From the NCBI GenBank assembly GCA_030622125.1, contig JAUXGM010000079.1:1-10273 (forward strand): a DNA stretch of 10,273 nt, in the 5' to 3' direction. Below are positions 3,100 through 10,273 of this stretch, one piece after another. The notes beneath the pieces are model-generated. The model saw only the letters and a program-made list of their open reading frames with translations, did not search any database and was not told the origin of the DNA. The DNA comes from a bacterium. Lineage in GTDB: Bacteria; AUK180. The stretch's first letter is position 1. Every line of letters begins with the position of its first letter. A program made the translations under genes and the position numbers.

Positions 3100-5481
3100 T
3101 CAGAAACTTAACTTAATTCCACCATAAAATAATCTTCCGTAAGCAGGAGCATACATAAATGCTGCATCATCCGTATGTTTTTCCGGTTGCACATAATCAA
3201 ATAGGTTTTTAACACCGACATATCCGTCAAGGTCCTTAAATAGTGTTTTCCTGATCTTCATATTGACAATAGTAAAATCCGGAGTATGAACAATTTTAGT
3301 ATTTGGTGATGACATATCTTCTTCTTCACAATAATCAATATACATTCTGCCCGTATAGTTTCCACTCACAGAAACTGATAAACCTTGATTTTCATAAAAA
3401 AATTCTACGAATGAGGTAAATTGTGGTACTCTTGAAATATGTTGACTTATATCATAATAATCCGTACCTGACCAATCATCTCTTTTATGTTCATACTTAG
3501 CGTCGGTATAACCTGAGTTTATGTTTATGCCGAGATCTCCAATAAGATTGAGTTTCATTTTTAATTCAATTCCCTGTGTCCAAGCATTATCAATATTCTG
3601 CCATTCATAATCGTAACCGAGTAATCTGGATTCATCGCTTGCATCACCAAATCCGATTTTATCCGAAAGGGCTGTTCTAAAAATATTGATACCGACATCA
3701 AAATTCTTCTTGAAATAATCCGTACTGAAATTGTAACTTAATGATTTTTCAGGGTTTAGTCCCGCAGGTTTATTAACCTTTGGAGAGCCACTGCATAAAT
3801 GCAGGTCTTCGCTAAAGCCATAAGGAACTCTAAAACCGGTTCCGATACTGCTTCTTATATTTATATTTTTACCTTTGTAACTTACCGCCATTCTCGGATT
3901 AAAGGAGTTTTCATCATATTTTAATTCTACATTTTCAATCTTTGCAACCTTTGCACTTCCGCCGAATTTATCATTTGAATGGTGTGAATCATATCTTGCA
4001 CCCAAAACTACTTCAAAATGATTGTTTATATGGAATTCATCCTGGATGAAAAATCCGTATTCAAAAGCTGATTTATTACTTTCGGAAAGATAATCCGCAC
4101 CATAATCAAGGGAAGAGCTATCGATGATCACATATTTTCCGGATTCTTTTAAGGAATCATAATTCGATTGGAATCCCGTAAGGATATGATGCTTATCCAT
4201 AAGAATATGATAATAACTGAGATTACTTATATATGAATCCTCTTTTGCAGTATAGGGCTGCATTATATCGGTACCGGGATAATTATCACTATGAGTTGCC
4301 ATATAATCACCGACAAAGGTGTCATTGGTAGCATTTCGCTTATGAATTGCCGATGCAAAAGAAAATGAGAGCATATTTTTATCCGTAAAATATTTTTTAT
4401 AACCTATCGTTGCTTGATACCTATTTGTTTTAATGTGTTCCGATGCCTCGGCATAAGGATTTTCAATAGTTTCCAATACTCCACCCTTTCTCATTTCATT
4501 TATTGCCTGTCCACTGAACATCAATACATCCTTACCGAACAATACATTACTTCCTTTAAGATTGAATCCGGCTGAAAAATTATCTGATTTTACTCTATCT
4601 GAAACACCATCGGATTCTGTTTTCCAGCCATCACCCGTTTGATCAATGACCCCGGCTTCATTTTTCTGAGCAAAGAACGCAATTCCCCAATTACCTGCTT
4701 TTATGGTATTATTTAAACTGAATTTATTTGTATCTTCACTTCCAAATTCAATATTTAGATTTGCATACGAATGGGTCGGCTCTTTTGTAATTATATTTAT
4801 TACTCCACCGATCGCGCTACTCCCATAAAGTGCAGAACCGGCTCCCTTGGTGATCTCTATTCTCTCAATCATTGAATCGGGTATCTGTTGCAAACCGTAA
4901 ACCCCGGCAAGACCGGTATAAATCGGTTCCCCATCAATCAATACCTGTGTATGATCACCCGATAATCCCTGCATTCTTACCATGCTGAAATTGCAGTATG
5001 AACATTGTTGTTCAACACGAATGCCATCCTGCCCTTCAAGTGCTTCATAGAGATTTGCTGCATCTTTGTTTTCAATTTCTCTTGAAGTGATGACCTCGGT
5101 TCTTATCGGTGAATCTTTAATATATCTCGGTGTCCTTGTTCCGGTAATAACAATTGTTCCACCGCCAAAGAGATCTCTGGTAAGATAGACATCCTGTTCT
5201 TTATACTTACCATTCTCAATTTCAACCTCAATCGTTTCAGCGATATAACCGGGCTTTGAAACCAATATTCTGTGCCTTCCTTCCGACAAAACCAAAAGGT
5301 ACTCTCCTTTCTCATTTGATAGAGTAAAATTAACGGAATTATCCTGAAAGATCTTAACACCATAAACTATTTGGTTTGTCTTTTTACTAATAATTTTTCC
5401 GGTTAAAAATCCCTGTGCTTTTTCTGCGAAACCGCAACATACTAATAAAACCAACACCAAAAAGATAAATGCTTTTTTCAT
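3100..5481 (-). CDS. TonB-dependent outer-membrane receptor with N-terminal carboxypeptidase-regulatory-like domain and CxxCxxxM plug motif
   Basis: The 793-residue protein has a Sec signal peptide (cleavage near GFA-EK, residue 19), then a CarboxypepD_reg-like beta-sandwich (about 25-100: LTGKIISKKTNQIVYGVKIF to KPGYIAETIEVEI). The plug follows (about 108-225: VITGTRTPR, VRMQGLSGDHTQVLIDGEP, IERIEITKGAGSALYGSSAIGGVINIITK), then a 22-strand-type barrel ending GGIKLSF, whose terminal Phe is the BAM recognition residue. The plug holds Cys-160, Cys-163, Met-167 and Met-170 (CSYCNFSMVRM). The Cys-163-xxx-Met-167 spacing is that of the copper site of Pseudomonas OprC, but the plug CxxCN form is also common in Bacteroidetes receptors of unknown substrate. 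A further Cys lies in the loop LHLCSGSPKVN next to the GLNPEKS segment. AGGAGG at 5492-5487 lies 5 bases before the ATG. Monocistronic, with a promoter block nearly identical to that of the other receptor gene. Substrate: metal ion or metal complex (inference); a BtuB label would be a guess. Confidence 0.92.
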   Translation of the reverse strand: MKKAFIFLVLVLLVCCGFAEKAQGFLTGKIISKKTNQIVYGVKIFQDNSVNFTLSNEKGEYLLVLSEGRHRILVSKPGYIAETIEVEIENGKYKEQDVYLTRDLFGGGTIVITGTRTPRYIKDSPIRTEVITSREIENKDAANLYEALEGQDGIRVEQQCSYCNFSMVRMQGLSGDHTQVLIDGEPIYTGLAGVYGLQQIPDSMIERIEITKGAGSALYGSSAIGGVINIITKEPTHSYANLNIEFGSEDTNKFSLNNTIKAGNWGIAFFAQKNEAGVIDQTGDGWKTESDGVSDRVKSDNFSAGFNLKGSNVLFGKDVLMFSGQAINEMRKGGVLETIENPYAEASEHIKTNRYQATIGYKKYFTDKNMLSFSFASAIHKRNATNDTFVGDYMATHSDNYPGTDIMQPYTAKEDSYISNLSYYHILMDKHHILTGFQSNYDSLKESGKYVIIDSSSLDYGADYLSESNKSAFEYGFFIQDEFHINNHFEVVLGARYDSHHSNDKFGGSAKVAKIENVELKYDENSFNPRMAVSYKGKNINIRSSIGTGFRVPYGFSEDLHLCSGSPKVNKPAGLNPEKSLSYNFSTDYFKKNFDVGINIFRTALSDKIGFGDASDESRLLGYDYEWQNIDNAWTQGIELKMKLNLIGDLGININSGYTDAKYEHKRDDWSGTDYYDISQHISRVPQFTSFVEFFYENQGLSVSVSGNYTGRMYIDYCEEEDMSSPNTKIVHTPDFTIVNMKIRKTLFKDLDGYVGVKNLFDYVQPEKHTDDAAFMYAPAYGRLFYGGIKLSF

Positions 5482-5571
5482 AAAAGCCTCCTATAAGTAA
5501 AATAGCCCACACTAAATAATGTAGTTTTATCTACTTTTCAAAAGTATAGCATATTATTTATAAAATGTCAA
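5482..5571 (-). promoter_or_regulatory. Shared promoter-leader block, copy 1: sigma-70 promoter, dyad operator, leader and RBS
   Basis: Read on the minus strand, TTGACA (5571-5566), a 17-base spacer and TATACT (5548-5543) make a near-consensus sigma-70 promoter, with the start of transcription expected near 5536. A perfect dyad TACTTTT-G-AAAAGTA (5546-5532) overlaps the -10 box and start point, the usual place for a repressor. The leader of about 55 bases contains a small GTAG/CTAC hairpin and ends in AGGAGG. The whole 90-bp block matches 9763-9852 at 87 positions; the similarity stops just at the -35 box on one side and the start codon on the other. I do not recognise the dyad as a Fur, Zur or MntR box. 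Confidence 0.85.
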
Positions 5572-5580
5572 ATGTTTTTT

Positions 5581-6339
5581 TTAAAATAGATACAAGCTCA
5601 AAGCCATTATTGCCATTCCTAAAATAGTTCCTGATATTGCTATATGACCTTTGCTATTCTCAAAAGATAATGGTAAAAGTTCATCAAAACTAATAAATAC
5701 CATTATTCCGGCAACAAAAGCAAGAATAAAAGATAAAACAAAATCTGAAAGAAACGGCTTTAATATCAAAAAGCCGATAATTGCACCAATAGGTTCTGCA
5801 ATTCCGGAAAAGAATGAGTAGAAAAATGCTTTTTTTCTGCTTTTTGTCGCATAATATATGGGCATTGAAACTGCAATTCCTTCAGGAATATTATGTATGG
5901 CAATGGCAAAACAAAGTGTTAGACCTAAATTTACATCCTTTACCGACCCCATAAACACAGCTAACCCCTCGGGGAAATTATGAATTGTTATGCCAAGTGC
6001 TGTAAATATACCTGCTGTCATAAGTTTTCTATTTTTTTTGTCAACCTTTACATGCTCTTCAATATATTCGTGGGGAATAAGAAAATCAATGAGCATAATA
6101 AATAGCATTCCGGAAAAAAAGGCGATATTTCCTCTCAAAAAACCAATCTCCGAAACGGATGATGAAAAGAGCTCTACAAATGAAACATAGATCATTACAC
6201 CTGCTGAAAATCCAAGACAGAAACGAAGATAACTCTTTTTAAATTTTTTAATAAATAAAGAGATTAAACTTCCGATACCTGTGGAAATACCTGCTATAAA
6301 TGTTAGTAATAATGGAAACCAAAACTCGGATTCATTCAT
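5581..6339 (-). CDS. zupT: ZIP-family divalent metal transporter, ZupT-like
   Basis: The 252 residues match the usual length of bacterial ZupT (about 257). There are about eight hydrophobic helices, starting with PLLLTFIAGISTGIGSLISL and CLGFSAGVMIYVSFVELF. The two metal-site helices carry HNFPEG (His-120, Glu-124) and HNIPEG (His-149, Glu-153), and SGIAEPIGAIIG supplies Glu-182; this is the full ZIP signature of the inner-membrane ZupT subfamily. It imports Zn and often Fe, Mn or Co into the cytoplasm. The start at 6339 is preceded by AGGAG 11 bases upstream; a nearer ATG at 6346 reads only four codons. It lies 103 bases past the flavodoxin gene with no promoter seen between, so it is probably the last gene of the receptor-FmdE-flavodoxin operon. 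Its TAA ends 10 bases before the -35 box of the next receptor gene. Confidence 0.93.
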   Translation of the reverse strand: MNESEFWFPLLLTFIAGISTGIGSLISLFIKKFKKSYLRFCLGFSAGVMIYVSFVELFSSSVSEIGFLRGNIAFFSGMLFIMLIDFLIPHEYIEEHVKVDKKNRKLMTAGIFTALGITIHNFPEGLAVFMGSVKDVNLGLTLCFAIAIHNIPEGIAVSMPIYYATKSRKKAFFYSFFSGIAEPIGAIIGFLILKPFLSDFVLSFILAFVAGIMVFISFDELLPLSFENSKGHIAISGTILGMAIMALSLYLF

Positions 6340-6359
6340 TTTTCATTATTCTCCTATTC

Positions 6360-6455
6360 TTAAAATACATTTGGGATCATTCTCCACCTAACTTTTCTTT
6401 TATATTCTTCATATTCTTTCTTATCCTTTATCCGTTCTTTTATTATCTTGTATTT
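6360..6455 (-). pseudogene. Possible 3' remnant of a membrane methyltransferase-like gene
   Basis: Between the flavodoxin and ZIP genes an open frame of 31 codons, without an ATG at its upstream end, reads KERIKDK then EYEEYKRKVRWRMIPNVF and a TAA. It overlaps the last bases of the flavodoxin gene in another frame. The tail EYxEYxxKVRxRxIP is what I associate with the C-terminus of small integral-membrane methyltransferases (isoprenylcysteine methyltransferase / NnrU type). If that is right, a gene was deleted here, leaving only its last codons, and the flavodoxin gene now lies at the deletion point. The segment is short and the family match is from memory, so chance or a short real peptide remain possible. 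Confidence 0.35.
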
Positions 6456-7003
6456 TTACTTCCTTTTAATTCTTTCGCAAAACTTTTCGCATTTTCTAAA
6501 TCGTTTTCATTAGGTCTGCCTTTACATATTCCACCAATAAGTTTAAATGGTCCGACAATTTCAAATCCTCTACAATCAAATTCTCCAATGATATTGAAAC
6601 CTTTCTTCAATAATTTCTTTTTTAATGGAATATGAAAGTGAGAAACTCTGTGACGAATATTATGAATAAAATTTCCCGCATTACTCATACCACTGGTTGA
6701 AAAAATAAACACTTTCTTGTCTTTCAAGTTGGGTAATTTATCAATTAGTTTGAATAAACTTTTATGATGTTTCCCAAAATATATTCCGGAACCAAACCCA
6801 ATTAAGTCATATTCTGAAAGGGCATTTATCTCTACTTTACTTTTTTTGTCATTCTGAGCGAGTGAGCCAAAGCCCTGAACAGAGTGAAGGGGAAGAATCT
6901 CATGTGGTTTAACAATTCTCGCATCAAGAACTTCAGCCATTGTTTTAGCAATTTTCGAAGTGTTTTTATTATGTATTGAAATACAAATTATTAGAGTTTT
7001 CAT
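6443..7003 (-). CDS. Flavodoxin family protein with a repeat-derived insertion
   Basis: This is a 186-residue cytoplasmic FMN-binding flavodoxin fold: the phosphate loop is ISIHNKNTSKIA (residues 8-19), with LIGFGSGIYFGKHHKSL (67-83) and VFIFSTSGMSN forming the other flavin-side loops, and EFDCRGFEIVGPFKLIGG and GRPNENDLENAKSFAKEL at the end. It probably transfers electrons to an unknown partner. The ATG overlaps the TGA of the FmdE gene (ATGA), so it is translated by coupling, and it has no good Shine-Dalgarno sequence of its own. Odd feature: residues 34-52 (HEILPLHSVQGFGSLAQND) are encoded by a copy of the dispersed hairpin repeat. The insert keeps the frame and sits between beta-2 and the helix before the FGSGIYFG loop, where relatives have a short linker, so the protein may still fold. 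In this locus it could reduce a metal complex after import (inference). Confidence 0.88.
   Translation of the reverse strand: MKTLIICISIHNKNTSKIAKTMAEVLDARIVKPHEILPLHSVQGFGSLAQNDKKSKVEINALSEYDLIGFGSGIYFGKHHKSLFKLIDKLPNLKDKKVFIFSTSGMSNAGNFIHNIRHRVSHFHIPLKKKLLKKGFNIIGEFDCRGFEIVGPFKLIGGICKGRPNENDLENAKSFAKELKGSKNTR
6848..6903. repeat. Dispersed hairpin repeat inside the flavodoxin gene, ATTCT/AGAAT variant
   Basis: On the plus strand this 56-bp segment starts GTCATTCTGAGCGAGTGAGC and ends GAAGAATCTCAT. The ends match the intergenic elements at 1536-1572, 1583-1643 and 9907-9940, with pairing ATTCT/AGAAT. It lies antisense to the coding strand and is read without stop codons through the flavodoxin frame. 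Confidence 0.8.
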
Positions 7004-7605
7004 TTTATCATTTCAAAGAGTTCATCTATCGGTGAATTTATAAAAATATCTTTTAGCTTGTGCTTTGCCAGTTTAAATTCTTTTTTCTCCTCATCCGTTA
7101 CCGTTTTCAATTTTATTTTTGTTCTTATGCTAAAGAAACTGCCGGAAATTTTTTGAAATATTTCTTTCTTTACCTTTATTATTATTTTCTTACCGGTTGA
7201 CTTCCTCATAAAAACAAACGAGTAGTTTTCTTCCGATGTTATTAGATTACTTGTTCCTTCCGGCAACTTAATCTCAAAATCTTTTCTCCTTTTCACTCGT
7301 GTTATGAATTCAAAGGTATCTTCTGCTCCGTGAGTTGGCAATGAATTTATTATCTTGAAATCCTCTCTTTTCGGTATCTCATCTTTCCAGAGTTCTGATA
7401 TGGCAAGTTGTGTCGCTCTAAAAGCAATCACAACACAGGGACAAATATCTCCATGGTATTTTTCCACATCTTTTAGTGAAATTTTAAGCACACTATCCTC
7501 GTCATAAATTGATATGGAAGATATTTCCGTATTCTTTTCCTCACATCCATTGAAAATATTGAATGCAAGAAATAAACAAACCATTACTGCAAATGTTCTT
7601 TTCAT
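7000..7605 (-). CDS. FmdE-domain lipoprotein (periplasm-facing, metal or cofactor binding)
   Basis: The 201-residue protein starts with a lipoprotein signal (MKRTF, hydrophobic run, FNGC with Cys-21 followed by Glu-Glu). The mature part has the FmdE signature KYHGDICPCVVIAFRATQLA (His-51, Cys-55, Cys-57), where the family usually has FHGHxCPG, then NSLPTHGAEDTFEFITR (His-92, Glu-95, Asp-96) and a strand-rich segment TSNLITSEENYSFVFMRKSTGKK. FmdE was named after the formylmethanofuran dehydrogenase subunit, but most bacterial members are stand-alone metal-binding proteins; no methanofuran pathway is suggested. AGGAGG (7620-7615) lies 9 bases before the ATG. It follows the receptor gene by 30 bases and overlaps the flavodoxin gene by 4, so the three are one operon. 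The likely job is to take the metal or metal complex from the receptor in the periplasm (inference). The CPC in place of CPG is unusual and would add a third thiol/imidazole ligand. Confidence 0.82.
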   Translation of the reverse strand: MKRTFAVMVCLFLAFNIFNGCEEKNTEISSISIYDEDSVLKISLKDVEKYHGDICPCVVIAFRATQLAISELWKDEIPKREDFKIINSLPTHGAEDTFEFITRVKRRKDFEIKLPEGTSNLITSEENYSFVFMRKSTGKKIIIKVKKEIFQKISGSFFSIRTKIKLKTVTDEEKKEFKLAKHKLKDIFINSPIDELFEMIK

Positions 7606-7635: not shown

Positions 7636-9762
7636 TCAAAAGGTCATCTCTACTTTCCCGGTAATTTCGCGCCCGGGTGTTTTCAAATTCCATGACTCTT
7701 TCCATTGTTTATCAAAAATATCTCGGACAGATACAGCTGCTGAGATATGTTTTTTAATTTTTCTGCTGATATTCACACTGAAATTGGTATAGCCGTTCAG
7801 TTTTTTGGTATTCTCAAGGTCGTCGTATCTTTCACCCTCATAATGTCCCGTCAATTTAAAAGTAGCGATTTTGGGATGTTCATAGACTAAACAGATGCTG
7901 ACATTATGTTCAGGCTGACCTGTCAGCCAATTGCCTTCATAGTCTTCGGAAATATAACTACCGCTTAGTATATCGGCATCAATTTTTTCTACCTCGGTTT
8001 TAAGATAGGTGTAATTAGCTAAAAGTGAAAAATTGGATAATTTATATCTTAAACCAAGCTCAACACCATTAGTTTTTACTTTATCTATATTGTGCCATTT
8101 AAATTTCTTTGTGCCGTCTTCTTCTTTCCAAAAAACTATATCCATCCAATCTGAAATATCATTGTAAAAATAGAATAAGTTGGCGGTAAAATTCTTTAAG
8201 AATTTTTGTTCTATGCCAACCTCATAATCTATTGTTTGTTCGGGCTCAATATCAGGATTACCCACTCTCATTTTACCGGGTGGACATTCAAATGTGCCAA
8301 AAAGTGAATATAGATATGGCACATCGGAAGCTTTGCCAACTGAAAGTTTTACCGCGGTCAGGTCAGATATATTATATGCTAACCCGATCTTCGGATTGAT
8401 TATCTCATCTGATTTAGAACTATATTCAGCATTTTGAGTAGGATCGGATGAATCCGTATAGGAGCCGTCTTTGGTCTTAAACCAATCATAACGAGCACTT
8501 AGATTTAGCAATAATTTACCCAATTCAATTTCATCCTGACCAAAAACCGACCACCTTGATTGTTTGCCCTTTGCAACAGTTTTTCTTCCGGATTCCCATA
8601 CACTTTCATTTTCCATCTCACCATTGCGGTAATCAATACCATAGGTTAGAAGTTGTTTACTGCCCAAAGGACTGGTTAGAGTAAGATTACCGCCCATATC
8701 TTTCACAGGGATGATATCTTCCATTTCTATTTTATCGTAACCCCAGTATGATTTTTTTGGGTTGGGTTTGGCATCATAGGTATCACCAAACCTTTCGTCA
8801 AGATAAAATATATTTGAAGATATTTTTAAATTCCCGTCTTTTTTTATATACCCAGCAGTAAATCTATCTCTTTTAAAATTCTTGATAAAGTATTTTCTTC
8901 CCATCGTAGTTTCTTCATCCCATTTTGAATATCCAAAAGTCAGTTTTGAATTTCCGGTTAACCAATAATTAAAATTACAAAAGAAATTATAAGCATTTCT
9001 ATCCTGATTAACGGCATTTTCTTTAAAAGCATCCATAATATTCCCGACTATTTTTTCTGCTTGCGCCTGTGTTTTTCCTTTCTTCATCATTGCCTCTATT
9101 TTTGCATTCGTGATGGCATCATAGTCCCATGAATCATATCCGGTGTTTTGGAATATATTCAAGTGCATTATATAACTCAAATTATCAATTAAATATCCTG
9201 AAAAAGTAGCATTGACAGTATAAGCGGAATTGCTTCCCATTGAGCTGTTAATATTACATTTGCTTTTAGGTTCGGTTTTTTTTGTAATTATATTAATTAC
9301 ACCACCCATAGCACTTGATCCGTAGAGTGAAGAGCTTGCACCTCTGACTATCTCTATCCTCTCAACAATTTTCACTGGTAATTCATTCCATTTCGCACCG
9401 CCACAGGCATACCTATTGATAGGAATGCCATCTTTCATTACCAAAGTTGCTCTTGGATGTGGGAAGCCCCTTAAACGAACCCATGTTCTTGCCGAGCCTG
9501 CTCCCTGCGGTCTTGTAACTATAATTCCGGCATACTCACTTAAAAGTTCATCAACATATTTTGCCGATGATCTCTCGATATCTTTTTTTGTTATGATAGA
9601 TACGCTGGAAGCAACCTTATTTAAATTCCTCTCTCCTCTTGTTGCAGTTACAGTGATCTCTTCATGCAATAATATTTTTGTTCTTGTTTCCTCCGCATAT
9701 ACATTTCCTGAAAATAGCACAGTTACAATAAACATTGCAAAAGGCATAAATCGCTTCTTCAT
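7636..9762 (-). CDS. TonB-dependent outer-membrane receptor, first gene of the metal-uptake operon
   Basis: The 708 residues begin with a Sec signal peptide (cleavage near VYA-EE, residue 24) and a TonB-box-like EEITVTATRGER. The plug (about 38-160) contains SVSIITKKDIERSSAKYVDELL, VRLRGFPHPRATLVMKDGIP, VERIEIVRGASSSLYGSSAMGGVINIITKK. The barrel that follows ends GKVEMTF with the BAM-recognised terminal Phe. Length is normal, and there is no N-terminal accessory domain, unlike the other receptor in the window. The plug loop NRYACGGAKWNELP and the loop FECPPGKMRVGNPDIEPEQT each hold a cysteine. The NPDIEPE segment is the usual site of the last third of TonB receptors. AGGAGG lies 5 bases before the ATG, and the promoter is the shared 90-bp block. 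The FmdE lipoprotein gene follows after 30 bases. The substrate is most likely a metal complex, judged from the ZIP and FmdE neighbours (inference). Confidence 0.92.
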   Translation of the reverse strand: MKKRFMPFAMFIVTVLFSGNVYAEETRTKILLHEEITVTATRGERNLNKVASSVSIITKKDIERSSAKYVDELLSEYAGIIVTRPQGAGSARTWVRLRGFPHPRATLVMKDGIPINRYACGGAKWNELPVKIVERIEIVRGASSSLYGSSAMGGVINIITKKTEPKSKCNINSSMGSNSAYTVNATFSGYLIDNLSYIMHLNIFQNTGYDSWDYDAITNAKIEAMMKKGKTQAQAEKIVGNIMDAFKENAVNQDRNAYNFFCNFNYWLTGNSKLTFGYSKWDEETTMGRKYFIKNFKRDRFTAGYIKKDGNLKISSNIFYLDERFGDTYDAKPNPKKSYWGYDKIEMEDIIPVKDMGGNLTLTSPLGSKQLLTYGIDYRNGEMENESVWESGRKTVAKGKQSRWSVFGQDEIELGKLLLNLSARYDWFKTKDGSYTDSSDPTQNAEYSSKSDEIINPKIGLAYNISDLTAVKLSVGKASDVPYLYSLFGTFECPPGKMRVGNPDIEPEQTIDYEVGIEQKFLKNFTANLFYFYNDISDWMDIVFWKEEDGTKKFKWHNIDKVKTNGVELGLRYKLSNFSLLANYTYLKTEVEKIDADILSGSYISEDYEGNWLTGQPEHNVSICLVYEHPKIATFKLTGHYEGERYDDLENTKKLNGYTNFSVNISRKIKKHISAAVSVRDIFDKQWKESWNLKTPGREITGKVEMTF

Positions 9763-9852
9763 ACAAGCCTCCTATAAGTAAAATAGCCCACACTAAAAAA
9801 TGTAGTTTTATCTACTTTTTAAAAGTATAGCATATTATTTATAAAATGTCAA
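9763..9852 (-). promoter_or_regulatory. Shared promoter-leader block, copy 2: sigma-70 promoter, dyad operator, leader and RBS
   Basis: This has the same elements as at the other receptor gene: TTGACA (9852-9847), 17-base spacer, TATACT (9829-9824), dyad TACTTTT-A-AAAAGTA (9827-9813), and AGGAGG 5 bases before the ATG. It differs at three positions only. One of the three is the central, unpaired base of the dyad, so both arms are intact in both copies. It should drive the receptor-FmdE-flavodoxin operon and probably the ZIP gene. Confidence 0.85.
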
Positions 9853-9967: not shown

Positions 9968-10042
9968 TGGGGTCTACCCCGTGATAATCTCATATTTCTG
10001 TCATTATGAACCATTGATTTATCAATGGTGTAATAATCTCAT
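9968..10042. repeat. Half-copy plus full copy of the hairpin repeat, ATTAT/ATAAT variant
   Basis: 9968-9993 has GGGGT-CT-ACCCC followed by GTGATAATCTCAT, the right end of the family. The full element, 10000-10042, starts GTCATTATGA, has an 8-bp inner stem CCATTGAT-TT-ATCAATGG, and ends GTAATAATCTCAT. The outer ATTAT/ATAAT pairing gives a two-step hairpin. Confidence 0.65.
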
Positions 10043-10273
10043 ATTTCGAAGATCAAGAAGAAGAAAATAAGGCAATAAGGAAAAACTGGAATATCCTCCT
10101 CGCGTCATTATGAGGATTTTGAAAAAATCCGTAATAATCTCATATTTCACAGGTCAAGAAGAAGTAAATAAGGCAATAAGGAAATAAGACAATAAGGAAA
10201 AACTGGAATATCCTCCTCGCGTCATTATGAGGATTTTGAAAAAATCCGTAATAATCTCATATTTCACAGGTCA
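10037..10273. repeat. Tandem repeat, 101-bp and 117-bp units, running off the window edge
   Basis: Unit 1 is 10037-10137, unit 2 is 10138-10254, and a third begins at 10255 and is cut off at 10273. Each begins TCTCATATTTC, contains a polypurine stretch (AAGAAGAAAATAAGGCAATAAGG in unit 1), then CTCCTCGC and a copy of the hairpin repeat (10104-10143 and 10221-10260, inner stem GGATTTT-GAA-AAAATCC). Unit 2 is 16 bp longer because AAGGCAATAAGGAAAT is itself repeated with two changes. I see no gene in 9853-10273; it holds only repeats and AT-rich spacer. Too few and too long units, with no distinct spacers, for a CRISPR array. Confidence 0.8.

Follow-up and report, generated by a model that had tools for sequence, protein, structure and literature searches.

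Why two genes for clearly different TonB-dependent receptors should start from nearly the same stretch of non-coding DNA is the question raised by the window, as we call the whole 10,273-nucleotide stretch analyzed here. The window derives from a 2.08 Mb draft genome (G000; 96% complete, 192 contigs). Alignment of window positions 5482-5571 (copy 1) with 9763-9852 (copy 2), which are 4.3 kb apart and both on the minus strand, confirmed the claim of an earlier note that the two match at 87 of 90 bases (90 of 93 counting the ATG). A chance match is excluded (E about 4e-39), and the mismatches fall at block positions 33, 55 and 89. The same note had the similarity running from the -35 box to the start codon, and these limits hold: upstream of the -35 box identity fades within a few bases, while at the 3' end it stops just past ATGAA, beyond which the signal peptides of the two receptors are non-homologous. 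Each copy contains the elements named in the note, namely a near-consensus sigma-70 promoter, a dyad over the -10 box, a leader (about 54 nt, given there as about 55) and a ribosome-binding site (RBS), TAGGAGG, shortly 5' of the ATG. Copy 1 precedes TonB1 (3100-5481, minus strand; 793 aa), and copy 2 precedes TonB2 (7636-9762, minus strand; 708 aa). Both receptors possess Plug and barrel domains; a CarboxypepD_reg domain is present in TonB1 only, and the two can be aligned only over a part of the plug region, with about 38% identity over residues 109-261. The description of the receptors as clearly different was therefore apt.

Copy 2 stands at the head of a series of genes on one strand, in which TonB2 is followed by genes for an FmdE-family putative lipoprotein (7000-7605, minus strand; 201 aa; PF02663), a flavodoxin-family protein (6443-7003, minus strand), whose gene overlaps the end of the FmdE gene, and a ZIP transporter (5581-6339, minus strand), which matches the ZupT equivalog model with 325 bits against a cut-off of 252. 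A gap of 9 nt separates the stop codon of the ZupT gene from the copy 1 -35 box. Neither receptor scored above the curated cut-off of any substrate-specific receptor model, the nearest being CirA, BtuB and the haem receptors; for TonB2 the closest profiles were BtuB and the haem receptors, all below cut-off. The occurrence of FmdE beside a TonB receptor, together with ZupT, suggests a role in the uptake of a metal or a metal cofactor. This adjacency is not unique to the lineage of the window: G219, a genome from outside the phylum, encodes a TonB receptor, a DUF4198 protein and an FmdE protein (61% identical to that of the window) in a row, without the block. Within the literature collection searched, no paper connects FmdE with TonB-dependent receptors. 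Given their identical control DNA, TonB1 and TonB2 are likely to be co-expressed, and this common DNA, with the order of the genes, makes it plausible that a single response joins both receptors, FmdE, the flavodoxin and ZupT.

The two promoters (5543-5571 and 9824-9852, minus strand) have the same hexamers and spacing, TTGACA-17-TATACT with an extended TG, agree with the consensus at 11 of 12 positions and outrank all other sigma-70-like sites in the window. In the genome as a whole the promoter pattern TTGACATT-N15-TATA(C/A)T / TATACT, with one mismatch allowed, has 24 sites versus 0 for the control, and several of these are directly before genes of unrelated function. The putative promoter of the block is an ordinary and common strong sigma-70 (housekeeping) promoter of this genome. 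Over the -10 box each copy carries a perfect 15-bp dyad, TACTTTT-N-AAAAGTA (5532-5546 and 9813-9827), whose centre base, block position 33, is the sole difference between the two dyads. This dyad is a candidate local operator. It is not enriched, as a whole-genome search with at most one mismatch recovered 9 sites versus 8 for a control pattern; because every match apart from the two in the window is inside an ORF, the dyad marks no regulon.

In both copies the start codon, behind TAGGAGG, is 61 nt after the -10 box. Among the other genes with the same promoter for which this distance was measurable it is mostly 18-26 nt, with longer values of 44, 72 and 130 nt, and the leader of the block is longer than in most of them. 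Where the mRNA is predicted to begin, the leader can assume a stem-loop of two 7-bp helices with a 5x5 internal loop (predicted at 5495-5536 in copy 1 and 9776-9817 in copy 2, minus strand), which leaves the RBS free. The fold of copy 1 has a z of -3.3 over 70 nt and -2.8 over 52 nt; z is about -3 in both copies, which as recent duplicates are not independent evidence for structure, and some 2-4% of 52-nt segments drawn at random from the genome equal that value. A possible role for the predicted stem-loop is that of a 5' hairpin stabilizing the mRNA. Such a stabilizing 5' stem-loop is present in the mRNA of the E. coli outer-membrane protein gene ompA. The window leader is reminiscent of it: here too the mRNA encodes an outer-membrane protein and is predicted to carry a stem-loop at its 5' end or close to it, followed by an unpaired RBS; unlike that of ompA, the window leader has a start that is predicted only and a stem-loop that is not conserved in the relative G003 described below, and the two share no homology. 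A leader peptide was considered and rejected, as the leader reads without a start codon that has its own RBS. In the leader upstream of the G219 genes (L053, 1-90 and 71-3435), pairing of ACUGACC with GGUCAGU is possible and would partly occlude the RBS, with a z of only -1.5.

The history of the block can be read from relatives. A search of seven genomes of the phylum recovered one extra copy, in G003, which belongs to another genus of the same family; the block was not found in the other phylum members. In G003 it precedes genes orthologous to FmdE (86% identical to the window protein), the flavodoxin and ZupT, along with a gene for a PEMT/ICMT-like methyltransferase, which stands between those for the flavodoxin and ZupT. 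Of TonB2 only the terminal ~65 bp survive between the G003 block and FmdE, and the receptor was therefore evidently deleted there. Orthologues of TonB1 are found in G005 (79% identity), G003 (63%) and G001 (46%), where they stand elsewhere and have no block in their upstream regions. From the block-free TonB1 orthologues and the G003 block at the FmdE operon we infer that the block is native to TonB2-FmdE, with copy 2 in the ancestral place and TonB1 as the recipient; G003 is the one relative with the block. The G003 block is 72-77% identical to the window copies (61 of 85 aligned positions; BLAST 75-77%). Thus, the window copies differ from each other by 3% and from the G003 block by 28%, while 18% of the fourfold-degenerate sites of the operon genes (34 of 188) differ between the window genome and G003, which implies that the copying or conversion postdates the split from G003. 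At position 55, the differing position that is readable in G003, the latter carries the base of copy 1, suggesting that both copies derive from one ancestral block. Furthermore, in the bases that precede the -35 box G003 agrees with copy 1 (CATTTGACA) at a few more positions than with copy 2; together with position 55, this agreement would mean that copy 2 has changed since. Either of the present copies may thus have been the donor.

We consider it probable that the second block arose by a recent local duplication of promoter and leader, from the TonB2-FmdE-flavodoxin-ZupT operon to TonB1, once this lineage and G003 had separated. The earlier note had offered recent duplication or gene conversion as one of two alternatives; the presence of only two copies and the source operon apparent from comparative genomics bear it out. 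According to this proposal the block would be the native promoter, leader and RBS of the operon, and a copy of it, ~95 bp long, would have come to lie between ZupT and the unrelated receptor gene TonB1. The latter would thereby have lost its own upstream region and gained the start signals of the neighboring operon. Each copy would fire an ordinary strong sigma-70 promoter, over whose -10 box the dyad may act as a local operator, and the 54-nt transcribed leader would open with a stem-loop that may stabilize the mRNA or carry weak control. The observed pattern would look no different if two older copies had undergone gene conversion.

An unlikely alternative is an older pair of paralogous control regions that gene conversion, or strong purifying selection acting on an operator and leader RNA common to both, has prevented from diverging. 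Such constraint would be in keeping with copies that are near identical, with a perfect dyad changed at its centre base only, with comparable stem-loop z-scores in both and with a distance from -10 box to start codon well beyond the usual 18-26 nt. However, it does not sit well with TonB1 orthologues that are without the block, nor with a G003 block that has changed more than the fourfold-degenerate sites. The G003 dyad differs and is shifted in register, and the leader there could still make 11 of 14 pairs, with a fold no better than shuffles (z -0.4). Compensatory changes on both sides of a pair are absent among the three sequences, a comparison of weak power with only one divergent homologue. 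The G003 leader may also have decayed after the loss of the receptor.

More doubtful still is the reading in which the leader is an unrecognized cis-regulatory RNA, or the dyad the operator of a metal regulator, specific to the TonB2-FmdE-flavodoxin-ZupT operon, with TonB1 recruited by copying of the unit. That the stem-loop is a riboswitch or another regulatory RNA sensing the substrate of the receptors is very improbable: the symmetric internal loop and a fold that few random windows of the genome equal would suit it, but an Rfam search of the leader gave no match at any useful score, and a covariance model of the leader run on 290 genomes returned the same three copies and two chance-level matches, with no further leader homologue. 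In addition, the G003 structure is not above shuffles and has no covariation, the RBS is outside the stem and the leader showed no terminator, so that a riboswitch is not supported. The two chance-level matches, in G202 and G212 (E 0.002 and 0.004), were set aside since about 3 are expected in 290 genomes and neither is before a receptor.

A whole-genome search of G000 recovered only the two window copies; the few percent that the draft lacks may hold another. Further copies before metal or receptor genes, with the dyad arms conserved, were sought in the genome, the phylum and with the covariance model, and these searches added G003 alone, in which the dyad is changed. Among partial DNA matches, those before a Zn-ribbon protein gene (L004) and an apparent IMP dehydrogenase gene (L005) were judged to be ordinary promoter or RBS matches, that in L003 involves the RBS only, and a single 40-bp match in a plasmid collection, from Monoglobus, is uninformative. 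The least probable reading, the regulon-wide cassette that was the other alternative of the earlier note, here extended to a mobile promoter cassette serving many genes in this genome and its relatives, would account for the loss of homology near the -35 box in the window copies and G003, as expected of a discrete unit, and for an FmdE present in just 2 of the 7 phylum genomes, as if the operon itself were often moved or lost, but is largely refuted by the lack of a third copy in G000, by the yield of G003 alone from the phylum and of nothing else above chance level from the 290 genomes, and by the other dyad sites, all within genes and at the frequency of the control.

The local duplication that we favor falls under known promoter re-use, or promoter propagation. 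Mobile promoters (Matus-Garcia et al. 2012 NAR; van Passel et al. 2014 Genetics), in the form in which they are cited in PMC8049555 and PMC9208149, are near-identical short promoter regions before different genes of one genome. The window block likewise places a near-identical promoter before strongly divergent genes; unlike the mobile promoters of those accounts, it has two copies 4.3 kb apart rather than at several unlinked loci, with no repeated movement seen, and local duplication suffices to explain it. In the erp (ospEF-elp) genes of Borrelia an upstream homology box, or promoter-operator, precedes divergent outer-surface protein genes, which are co-expressed; the homology extends into the leader peptide, involves many genes on cp32 replicons and is associated with the regulators BpaB, BpuR and EbfC (PMC10016077). 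The window case is a minimal counterpart in scale, with a conserved promoter and candidate operator before divergent surface-protein genes. It differs in that the homology stops at the ATG, without a shared leader peptide or initial residues, covers two genes and has no known regulator. The locus probably represents phylogenetically oriented regulatory rewiring by promoter-leader copying in an uncultured bacterial lineage; comparison with relatives identifies the donor operon, the recipient gene and the arrangement that preceded the copying. A further lesson is that control regions can be nearly identical in two places without marking a regulon.

Several minor features of the window were also observed. 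Between the flavodoxin and ZupT genes (6340-6429) lies a ~70-bp remnant, from the 3' end, of the PEMT/ICMT-like methyltransferase gene, which is intact in G003 (L018, 9171-9737), the genome that lost TonB2 instead; gene order thus points to reciprocal gene loss in one operon, of the methyltransferase in the window genome and of TonB2 in G003. The DNA of the ZupT region (window 5581-6429 versus L018 9668-10523) is 92% identical between the two genera, as opposed to only 63% for the TonB1 proteins. This difference, together with the sparse occurrence of FmdE in the phylum, makes horizontal transfer of the operon possible. The flavodoxin gene contains an in-frame insertion of ~62-63 bp (6838-6899), absent from the G003 orthologue, which carries a dispersed repeat motif of the genome (GTCATTCTGAG...GAAGAATCTC), also present at 1536 and 9907; it looks like a frame-keeping palindromic-repeat insertion comparable to the Rickettsia palindromic elements. 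Tandem-like repeats of about 100-117 bp (AATAAGGAAAAACTGGAATATCCTCC...) occupy 10030-10273 and reach the contig end. Finally, in G003 the TonB1 gene has its own promoter, TTGACA...TAATGT (L026, around 1020-1108), and between this and the start codon there is an inverted repeat, TGTAGTC...GACTACA, a possible operator.
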